From Clostridiales bacterium (GTDB taxonomy: Bacteria; Bacillota; Clostridia; UBA1381): a stretch of 34,189 nucleotides of DNA. Positions 7,033 to 21,897 of the stretch are shown piece after piece. Where the stretch lies: assembly GCA_029226065.1 (NCBI GenBank), contig JAQXXM010000019.1:1-34189 (forward strand). The letters run 5' to 3'. The notes beneath the pieces were generated by a model. The model searched no databases, was not told where the DNA came from, and saw nothing but the letters and a program-made list of their open reading frames with translations. Every line of letters starts with the position of its first letter. Within the stretch, counting starts at the first letter, position 1. Both the position numbers and the translations under genes were made by a program.

Positions 7033-7662
7033 ATGAATAAAAATTATCAGCTAATACTAAATAATACACTAAAACAAATAAGCGCCGCTAATCGTAGACC
7101 GTCACTTCTGTTACACGTCTGTTGTGCTCCGTGTTCGAGTTATGTTTTAGAGTACCTTAATGAATATTTTGATATTACTGTATTGTTTTATAACCCGAAC
7201 ATAACCGAGAATGCAGAATATACTAAACGATATAACGAACTAATACGGCTTGTTAGTGAGCTACCGTATAAATATCCTATAAAGGTGATAGACGGAGGAT
7301 ATACGCCAGAGCAATTCACTGCCATTTCAAAGGGGCTTGAGAATGAGCCTGAGGGCGGAAAGCGATGCTTGAAATGTTATCACTTAAGACTCAGGTTTAC
7401 GGCAAATATGGCAAATAAACACAAGTTTGATTATTTTACAACTACGCTTTCCATAAGCCCCCACAAGGATGCGAATATACTCAACTCAATCGGTAAAGAA
7501 TTGTCTGATGAGTATGGTGTGGAGTATCTATATTCTGATTTCAAAAAAAAGAACGGATATAAACGCTCATGTGAGCTTTCACGTATTTATAACTTATACC
7601 GTCAGGATTATTGTGGGTGCATATATTCCAAAATGGAAAGGAGAAATCAAAATGAGCATTGA
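7033..7662 (+). CDS. queH: Epoxyqueuosine reductase QueH
   Basis: A 209-residue protein of the QueH (formerly DUF208) family, which performs the last step of queuosine synthesis: reducing epoxyqueuosine to queuosine at position 34 of tRNAs with a GUN anticodon. It is a non-homologous alternative to QueG. All the family's cysteine motifs are seen: HVCCAPCSS (Cys30, Cys31, Cys34), RCLKCYHLRL (Cys112, Cys115) and YRQDYCGC (Cys194, Cys196), plus YSDFKKKNGYKRS. These cysteines are the ones expected to hold the Fe-S/iron centre. The start has GGGAG upstream. The 3' end overlaps the next gene by 11 nt. No other queuosine gene (queC/D/E/F, tgt, queA) lies in the window. Confidence 0.95.
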   Translation: MNKNYQLILNNTLKQISAANRRPSLLLHVCCAPCSSYVLEYLNEYFDITVLFYNPNITENAEYTKRYNELIRLVSELPYKYPIKVIDGGYTPEQFTAISKGLENEPEGGKRCLKCYHLRLRFTANMANKHKFDYFTTTLSISPHKDANILNSIGKELSDEYGVEYLYSDFKKKNGYKRSCELSRIYNLYRQDYCGCIYSKMERRNQNEH

Positions 7663-7927
7663 ATTGGAAATGATGCGACTTCAAAATAATGCAAAAAAAG
7701 ATTTAGGATTAAAAAAAGAACTCTTGGAAACACGCTCAGAGGCAGATCCATATAAAGCTTTTTGTGATGTTGCAATAAAGCATGGATATGAAATATCGTT
7801 ATTTGAACTCGCCGATATGGGGCAAGCATTCTGCGATGCTATGCTACGCAGCGTAAACGGCGGCGGAACGGAAAGTTTTAACGAGTGGAACGATTTTTAT
7901 GGTATGTTTTTTGATGCAATAGATTAA
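7652..7927 (+). CDS. Nif11-like small protein, coupled to queH
   Basis: A 91-residue acidic protein. Its ATG lies inside the queH 3' end (ATGAGCATTGA, 11-nt overlap) and has its own site AAAGGAG nine bases upstream, so translation is probably coupled. I rejected the track's longer ORF from 7469 because it only adds out-of-frame queH sequence. By recollection it resembles Nif11-domain proteins (PF07862): an N-terminal helix (MSIELEMMRLQNNAKKD), then DPYKAFCDVAIKHGY followed by EISLFELADMGQAF. A triple Gly (SVNGGG, 70-72) sits where Nif11 leader peptides carry their cleavage motif. The tail after GGG is short, acidic/aromatic and Cys-free (NEWNDFYGMFFDAID), unlike a typical modified core. Two Cys (38, 61) are in the leader-like part. 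No peptide-modifying enzyme or exporter is nearby. Family call is tentative; function unknown. Confidence 0.7.
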   Translation: MSIELEMMRLQNNAKKDLGLKKELLETRSEADPYKAFCDVAIKHGYEISLFELADMGQAFCDAMLRSVNGGGTESFNEWNDFYGMFFDAID

Positions 7928-8020
7928 AAAAGCGTATTCTCACCTACTCCCAAACTTGGGAGCAAATATGAACGTTTTTTAGCAAGCAATATTGCTCACT
8001 ATAAGCGTGCATTTTCCCAT
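7924..8020 (-). repeat. Dispersed intergenic element, copy A
   Basis: The reverse complement of this stretch aligns over nearly its whole length with 21788-21897. Shared blocks are GTGAGCAAT(A/T)TTGCTTG, a CCCAAG(A/T)TTGGG hairpin and an end of the form TACGCTTTTTT. The T-rich end coincides with the TAA stop of the Nif11-like gene, read from the other strand as TAAAAAAGCGTA. As RNA downstream of that gene it gives an A-rich/U-rich outer stem around the CTCCCAA/TTGGGAG hairpin, so it can act as that gene's terminator. Confidence 0.75.
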
Positions 8021-8025
8021 TAGAC

Positions 8026-8077
8026 AAAAAAGACAATCCCGAATTTTGTATATAGACTTTACACAAAATTCGGGATT
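8026..8077. terminator. Terminator of the oxidoreductase operon
   Basis: AATCCCGAATTTTGT and its exact complement form a perfect 15-bp stem with a 13-nt loop. On the minus strand a TTTTTT tract follows 3 nt after the stem, so it terminates the NagB/oxidoreductase operon; it also backs up the plus-strand queH operon. Confidence 0.85.
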
Positions 8078-8104
8078 ATTCAATTTTCGGTTTTCGCACG
8101 TATT

Positions 8105-9358
8105 TTACTGATGTACTTTTACGACAGCTCCGCCGTTTTTACGTGACTCCTCTGCACTTATACCGATAAGGTGTGCTTCTACAGATTCTGAAATATCTGT
8201 TGTAGACTTTGAACCTTCGCTGAGCATACCATAAAGCTCATTCATAATTATTGAGTCACCGCCACCATGGCCGTGTCCGCCCTCAATCAGAGTATCAAGC
8301 TTTATTACTTCTGTTTTTCCGCCATACGGCATAACGGTAATATCATCAGTACGTTCATCCATAATAATTTCGCCCAATGTACCATAGAACACATATCTAC
8401 GTCCGTCATGATAACTATACACCATTTTCAGTGATGCTTTGACTCCGTTTTTGAAGTTCATCTGTACAACCTGGTGATCTACCTGCTCTACATTGCACTT
8501 GAACGCACATTTTCCGTATGGACCCGTCTTTATACCTTCGTATAATTTCTCCTCCGTTATAGGCGGATCAATTGATACTTTGGCATACGGCCATTGAAAT
8601 TCAGGTTCATTGTTTTCGTGCCACATATCTACGTAAATTCGTTTTGCACTATACGGACATGTATCAATATACTTACAATCTACACATCTCTCTGCCGATC
8701 CCTCAGGAGCATTTTCAGGCTTAAAAAATCTTAAGTCGCCCAATGATGATACAGTATCACATTCACTGCCTGCATAATACTGAATTAAGTCCAGGTCGTG
8801 ACTGCATTTAGCTAATATTGCAGGATGTGATTCGTCTAACGTTGCAAATCCATGTCTCACATACGCTTGTGCCCAATGCCAATAATAGGGGCGCTCTGAT
8901 GCGTCTATCACATTAAGCTTACCTATTATGCCGCTTTGTATCAGTTCATGACACTTTCTGTATCCTGCGCCGTAGCGAAGTTCATGACATACGATTATCT
9001 GTCCGCCTGTACGCTCTTTTGCATCTAACAGTGCTTTTAGTTCTTCTCTGCTGTCTGAGATTGGTTTCTCCATAAATAAATCATATCCCAGCTCAAGACC
9101 GCGTATTCCCATAGGAACATGGTCACGGTCACCTGTTGCAATGATCAGAAGATCTCCCCGTTTTTCCTTAAAAAATTCCTCAGGATCAACAAAGTCTGTT
9201 GTGTCAATATCTATAAGCTTATGTATTTTTTCCATCTGTTCCGGATTAGTGTCACATAATGCTACCACCCTGAACTGTTCTGTTTTTTCACCAAGCATAC
9301 ATGCAAAGCCGCATCCTCTGCCGCCGCAGCCTATTATTGCTACATCATACCTTTTCAT
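8105..9358 (-). CDS. Gfo/Idh/MocA-family oxidoreductase
   Basis: A 417-residue NAD(P)-dependent dehydrogenase-like protein acting on a sugar or sugar derivative. The N-terminal Rossmann fold has GCGGRGCG (about 10-17), the family hallmark EKP (MEKPISDS) and a catalytic-type KCSHDLDLIQY. A cysteine cluster (RCVDCKYIDTCPYSA) lies in the C-terminal domain and may bind a metal or stabilise the fold. It is 15 nt downstream of the NagB-like gene and shares its promoter, so the pair likely handles an amino sugar or a host/plant glycan product. The start ATG follows GAGGG. There is no signal peptide. The substrate is not predictable from sequence alone. Confidence 0.88.
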   Translation of the reverse strand: MKRYDVAIIGCGGRGCGFACMLGEKTEQFRVVALCDTNPEQMEKIHKLIDIDTTDFVDPEEFFKEKRGDLLIIATGDRDHVPMGIRGLELGYDLFMEKPISDSREELKALLDAKERTGGQIIVCHELRYGAGYRKCHELIQSGIIGKLNVIDASERPYYWHWAQAYVRHGFATLDESHPAILAKCSHDLDLIQYYAGSECDTVSSLGDLRFFKPENAPEGSAERCVDCKYIDTCPYSAKRIYVDMWHENNEPEFQWPYAKVSIDPPITEEKLYEGIKTGPYGKCAFKCNVEQVDHQVVQMNFKNGVKASLKMVYSYHDGRRYVFYGTLGEIIMDERTDDITVMPYGGKTEVIKLDTLIEGGHGHGGGDSIIMNELYGMLSEGSKSTTDISESVEAHLIGISAEESRKNGGAVVKVHQ

Positions 9359-15343: not shown

Positions 15344-15386
15344 AAATCATCAATTCCTTCCTTTATTGAGTAAAGCTCATTTAGAC

Positions 15387-15417
15387 AAAAAAGGGGTGTT
15401 GCGTTAGCAACAGCCCC
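15387..15417 (-). terminator. Terminator between rpmA and obg
   Basis: On the minus strand GGGGCTGTTGC-TAAC-GCAACACCCC forms a long G+C-rich stem (one bulge) followed by TTTTTT. It belongs to the same GTTGC/GCAAC family as the hairpins at 2090 and 21743. It should cut most ribosomal-protein transcripts before obg. Confidence 0.85.
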
Positions 15418-21742: not shown

Positions 21743-21784
21743 AATACGGGGGCTGTTGCAAATGCAACGCCCCCGTATTTTCAT
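21743..21784 (+). terminator. Terminator of purL
   Basis: AATACGGGGGC(T)GTTGC-AAAT-GCAAC-GCCCCCGTATT forms a 16-bp stem with one bulged T, followed by TTCAT. Third member of the GTTGC/GCAAC hairpin family in the window. Confidence 0.85.
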
Positions 21785-21787
21785 AAC

Positions 21788-21897
21788 ATAGGAAATTGCC
21801 CGTTTTGAGTGAGCAATTTTGCTTGTTCAAAAAAAGCGTACCACCTGCCCCCAAGATTGGGGGTCAGGGGGTTGATGCGTTATTACGCTTTTTTTAT
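21788..21897 (+). repeat. Dispersed intergenic element, copy B
   Basis: Aligns over about 100 bp with the reverse complement of 7924-8020. It holds GTGAGCAATTTTGCTTG, AAAAAAAGCGTA paired with TACGCTTTTTTT, an inner CCCCCAA/TTGGGGG hairpin, and a GCGT-TATT-ACGC hairpin. Its T-rich end contains the complement of the xylanase stop codon (TAAAAAAAGCGTA on the minus strand), so as RNA it would terminate the xylanase transcript. It is about 12 bp longer than copy A because of an insertion beside the inner hairpin. Confidence 0.75.

Follow-up and report, generated by a model that had tools for sequence, protein, structure and literature searches.

A small terminator-like repeat, probably mobile, in A-tracts between convergent genes of a rumen Clostridiales bacterium

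A repeat of about 115 bases occurs at about 30 places in the genome of a rumen bacterium (G000), and two of its copies, A and B, lie in the window, i.e., the whole stretch of 34,189 nucleotides analyzed here. The repeat is best explained, with a probability of about 0.75, as a miniature, non-coding and non-autonomous mobile element that targets A-tracts and carries its own predicted terminator. The dispersed near-identical copies, their patchy spread, empty sites, duplicated A-tracts, and a terminator-like first module support the original prediction of a terminator cassette that is mobile or amplified.

Two copies in the window

Copy A (7926-8031, plus strand) is located between a small Nif11-like ORF (7652-7927, plus strand), for which a Pfam match was looked for and none was found, and a convergent GFO/IDH/MocA oxidoreductase gene (8105-9358, minus strand). 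Its left A-tract (7926..7931) overlaps the TAA stop of the ORF (7925-7927) and, from the sequence and from the duplication seen at other copies, is taken as the left copy of the target site. It is followed by an X module (7932..7980), in which GCGTA..., an inner CTCCCAAACTTGGGAG hairpin, and ACG with a T-tract (7975-7980) form a terminator-like unit according to the family alignment and folding, and by a constant, palindromic Y module, AGCAAGCAATATTGCTCACT...GCATTTTCCCATTAGAC (7981..8025). The right A-tract (8026..8031), which the sequence and a terminator scan point to as the right target-site copy, doubles as the minus-strand U-tract of the oxidoreductase gene's own intrinsic terminator, called by the scan at 8033..8079 on the minus strand, just outside the element. 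The element had been located properly beforehand, with an end at 8020 that is about 10 bp short, as the element proper runs to 8025 before the A-tract.

Copy B (21895-21778, minus strand) is inserted between a GH10 xylanase gene and a convergent purL. Its left A-tract (21889..21895) overlaps the xylanase TAA stop (21894-21896), and the X module, GCGTAATAACGCATCAACCCCCTGACCCCCAATCTTGGGGGCAGGTGGTACGC with a T-tract (21829..21888), the Y module, GAACAAGCAAAATTGCTCACTCAAAACGGGCAATTTCCTATGTTATG (21782..21828), and a short right A-tract (21778..21781) follow; the purL terminator hairpin (about 21744-21776, plus strand) is next to it. A repeated terminator hairpin of the GGGGCTGTTGCGTTAGCAACAGCCC type is found three times in the window, at 2082-2113, 15385-15416, and 21749-21782, and a similar hairpin also adjoins some copies of the element elsewhere in the genome.

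The proposed alignability of A and B over about 100 bp holds well: their local alignment score is 82, against a mean of 17.9 and a maximum of 40 for 2000 dinucleotide shuffles of B, and against at most 32 for any of 3364 further 113-nt windows taken from the contig. Their placement between convergent genes was likewise read correctly. Within the family, copy A is old and diverged, and copy B is near the consensus.

Family size and distribution

The family is dispersed: with a covariance model, a search proposed together with the two copies, the bacterium's own genome (1.84 Mb, 91% complete) gave 27 matches at E<=1e-6. With copy A as the query, further copies were found on other contigs at 73-80% identity, and with the consensus, 32 matches were obtained, many of them at 92-98% identity; the core pattern matches about 22 places. 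The consensus, in the orientation of copy A, is TATAAAAAA-GCGTAATAACGCATCAACCCCCTGACCCCCAATCTTGGGGGCAGGTAGGTACGC-TTTTTTT-GAACAAGCAAAATTGCTCACTCAAAACGAGCAATTTCCTATGTT-ATAAAAAA. The two outcomes named beforehand as adverse, no further copies and equally good alignments of shuffled sequences, were both looked for, and neither appeared.

Outside this genome, occurrence is patchy among rumen Oscillospiraceae-type genomes, and most relatives lack detectable copies. At the genus level, only two of 16 genomes (G000 and G007) have clear copies, and the closest relative compared (G004; purL 92% identical) yields no copy apart from a single weak match. At the family level, matches are found in 10 of 70 genomes, including 13 copies in G049 and seven in G016, and other families of the order give a few weak matches. 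When 85,462 species genomes were scanned for an exact pattern, six were positive, all of them MAGs with rumen- or sheep-type names (SUG1652, SUG37, RUG14178, RUG10604, RUG12270, and RUG11189). Viral contigs, phages, and plasmids were also scanned; carriage by any of these was dropped as no matches were found in those collections. A limited literature search found no description of the element in rumen Oscillospiraceae.

Modular structure

A full copy consists of X, made of the A-tract, hairpin, and T-tract and foldable on both strands, and Y, a constant palindromic module of about 45 bp. In X, the A-tract and GCGT pair with ACGC and the T-tract, and the stem covaries between lineages: GCGT/ACGC is replaced by the compensated GATT/AATC in G016. 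Other terminator-like modules can take the place of X, with Y staying constant. Furthermore, tandem X-Y-X-Y arrays, shortened X-only copies that stop at a new A-tract (C125, and in G007 C56), X-only copies without the right A-tract, and Y-only copies occur. The view that the second half exceeds what termination needs is therefore borne out, Y being the constant part and X the exchangeable one; probably, Y is the site recognized by the mobilizing machinery. As for the first half, the terminator-like fold proposed for it is present, and termination by X is a prediction from this structure. In a simple terminator scan, the element itself received no call.

For 48 of 51 copies, it is the minus-strand RNA that folds more stably, and G-U pairs are tolerated on that strand; this bias is only suggestive because the copies share ancestry. 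There are no terminal inverted repeats: the ends, GCGTAATAACGC... and ...CTATGTT, which are bounded by the A-tracts, are not inverted copies of each other. An Rfam search gave no match above chance, and a scan for internal promoters found nothing exceeding shuffled sequences and no consistent promoter. Resemblances to dif/Xer-like and CRISPR/tracr-like sequences, judged by eye, were dropped with no supporting feature.

A sister family with the same architecture is found in the same genome: AAAAAAGTCACTATCGTGAC...GTAGACTTTTTT, also written AAAAAAGTCACTATCGTGACTGTCG...GTAGACTTTTTT, followed by a TAATAGGAAATT/AATTTCCTATTA palindrome, e.g., L410, L416, L422, and L426 (G000 C41, C172, C65, and C128). 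Its matches number 19 here, 17 in G003, and 15 in G007, and between species both of its hairpins differ by compensated substitutions (GTCAC/GTGAC vs. GTCCC/GGGAC). Mosaics with Y1 are seen, and in G007 a sister copy occupies the site orthologous to that of copy A. Another sister copy (L411, G006 C44) borders a tyrosine recombinase gene at its 3′ end; this is the only recombinase adjoining any copy, an isolated case. A different repeat family in G003 (L073, L080, L083, and L086) has only a ATCAACCCCCTGACCCCCAATCTTGGGGG core in common with X, and in most of its copies a ATGCCTGACGGCAT hairpin precedes this core.

Insertion sites and target duplication

The copies sit in TA-rich A-tracts; mostly, these are A/U-tracts of the host's own intrinsic terminators in convergent gaps. 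The tabulation of gene orientation and distance to stop codons, suggested at the outset, covered 70 non-redundant copies, 61 of which had both neighbors called. Convergent genes flank 26 of these 61. In G004, the corresponding share is 18% for intergenic gaps (p=7e-6) and 23% for TA6 sites in such gaps (p=6e-4). Genes around the copies and in the background were called as simple ORFs, and copies from the same genome are not fully independent. The stop of the right convergent gene is typically 38-57 bp from Y, which leaves room for that gene's own terminator hairpin. The idea that the element begins at a stop codon is right for A and B but is not a rule of the family, since the TAA merges with the left A-tract in about 14 of the 39 full copies with a co-oriented left gene. 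Starting at TAA is a by-product: the TAA fuses with the A-tract, which is the actual target. Some copies are found in 5′ leaders with promoters upstream.

Comparison with G004 reveals empty sites, which show that the element is inserted into A-tracts and that these become duplicated. For example, a copy (C150) occupies an A-tract towards the end of a parB-like coding sequence whose G004 orthologue lacks it. In another case (C122), the element is inserted within the start of mnmA, encoding tRNA 2-thiouridylase (L131:1691-2839), flanked by ATGAATAAAAAA and AATAAAAAAGCT, and the G004 site is empty; AATAAAAAA is present on both sides and the reading frame is kept, so that the product, MNKK-[35 aa]-NKKAVIAMSGG, carries 35 element-encoded residues after MNKK. 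A shorter, X-only insertion (C125) is also missing in G004. As far as sequence comparison goes, the two coding-sequence sites are decisive for insertion into A-tracts. Most other sites are beyond such comparison, as DNA identity to G004 is only about 80%. At several copies (G000 C39, C142, C78, and C161), the flanking genes fall on different G004 contigs, possibly at rearrangement breakpoints.

Target-site duplication is present at the mnmA and parB-like sites and is not evident at every copy; the left and right A-tracts differ in many copies, B included. Rare A-tract variants are common to both flanks modestly more often than in permuted pairings (p about 0.009 and 0.018). This signal is weak because A-tracts carry little information, and the weight is therefore placed on the two coding-sequence sites.

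How the element may spread

We propose that the element inserts into TA-rich A-tracts, duplicating a short A-tract target of about 6-9 bp, and would therefore land mostly in the A/U-tract of intrinsic terminators of convergent genes. X and the A-tract would fold into a terminator-like hairpin closing in the T-tract, so that after insertion the left gene gains a new terminator at its stop codon, and the right gene would retain its old one, with the right target copy as its U-tract. For this reason, insertion may be near neutral. Mobilization would be in trans. Among the 92 proteins encoded next to copies, there is neither a recurrent transposase nor an autonomous transposon sharing the ends. 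Neither a reverse transcriptase (PF00078, RVT_1) nor, at E<=1e-6, a Y1 (RAYT-type) transposase (PF01797) was found in the 91% complete genome; thus, an agent for recent mobility is missing. An origin from IS200/IS605 was rejected, as no Y1 transposase was detected in this genome and IS200-type loci of the relatives lack the element's ends.

Alternatively, the minus-strand RNA, with Y at its 5′ and X at its 3′ end, might prime reverse transcription on A-tracts through the terminator U-tail, like a SINE. Variable-length poly-A target duplications, no inverted repeats, and 5′-truncated copies are expected from such a retroelement, and the variable A-tract duplications, the lack of terminal inverted repeats, and the X-only truncations ending at a new A-tract agree with this, as do the greater stability of the minus-strand RNA and the G-U pairs kept there. 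However, this strand asymmetry is partly due to one common ancestor, Y-only copies contradict the scheme, X-only copies that lack the right A-tract also count against it, and there is no RVT_1 match in the genome, so that a SINE-like origin is unlikely. That the copies are bacterial SINE-like elements, short RNAs whose own terminator U-tails anneal to genomic A-tracts and which a trans-acting reverse transcriptase copies into DNA, we consider quite unlikely; to our knowledge, no short bacterial repeat uses such retro-mobility.

Or the copies may be bidirectional terminators selected by the host and amplified by gene conversion or recombination. The enrichment between convergent genes and at stop codons, the terminator-like structure, and the several copies whose flanking genes are separated onto different contigs in G004 would fit with this, but insertions within coding sequences (mnmA and parB-like), copies in 5′ leaders with upstream promoters, tandem arrays, close relatives without the element, and conservation of Y beyond the needs of termination would not, and we hold it improbable. 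Conserved and covarying hairpins, the minus-strand G-U bias, and the occasional copy in a 5′ leader might also suggest a small RNA family or cis-regulatory leaders, transcribed as functional RNA; as there is no consistent promoter or gene association, no Rfam match above chance, and no uniformity of genomic context, this is very improbable. A mobile, A-tract-targeting terminator repeat is thus the reading that we prefer.

Relation to known repeats

By its description, the pneumococcal SPRITE appears to be closest in kind (PMC3049150). Both have about 30 copies per genome, are AT-rich with AAAA/TTTT ends and a terminator-like hairpin, favor convergent gaps and 3′ ends of coding sequences, and are nearly absent from relatives. 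The mobilizing enzyme of SPRITE in Streptococcus pneumoniae has not been identified, as for the element here, and target duplication could not be established by its authors (PMC3049150). In contrast to SPRITE, the element belongs to another bacterial lineage; its constant Y is separate, its X exchangeable, and both A-tract duplication and empty sites can be seen.

MITEs such as RUP, BOX, and Correia/NEMIS are also short, non-coding, repeated, and mostly intergenic, with target duplication and tandem or nested copies. The element differs in its A-tract target and in having no parent transposon among the neighboring proteins, and, judged from its sequence, fails the definition of MITEs on terminal inverted repeats. 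REP/BIME sequences, moved by RAYT (Y1), are likewise short palindromic extragenic repeats, and in comparison with them the G-T pairing points to a transcribed or single-stranded form (compare PMC3733652). Unlike these, the element is longer (~115 bp) and two-part, no GTAG end tag is seen, and, with no Y1 transposase detected in the genome, it would fail the REP definition. Rickettsia palindromic elements (RPE) resemble it in their in-frame insertion in a housekeeping gene, here mnmA, but the element is mostly intergenic and its coding insertions are exceptional. Group IIC introns insert at intrinsic terminators; the element differs from them in being far too short, with no intron RNA by Rfam and no reverse transcriptase in the genome. 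We would place it among the small mobile terminator-like intergenic repeats.

Uncultured rumen Firmicutes would thus be a second lineage with SPRITE-like terminator repeats, one in which the insertion sites, empty sites, and A-tract duplication missing for SPRITE are visible. A simple account is offered: small repeats may spread without harm when they land in terminators and carry one themselves, and the same account would cover why such repeats mark gene ends. The modular exchange of X and Y, together with the covarying hairpins, may provide concrete tests for the mobilizing enzyme.
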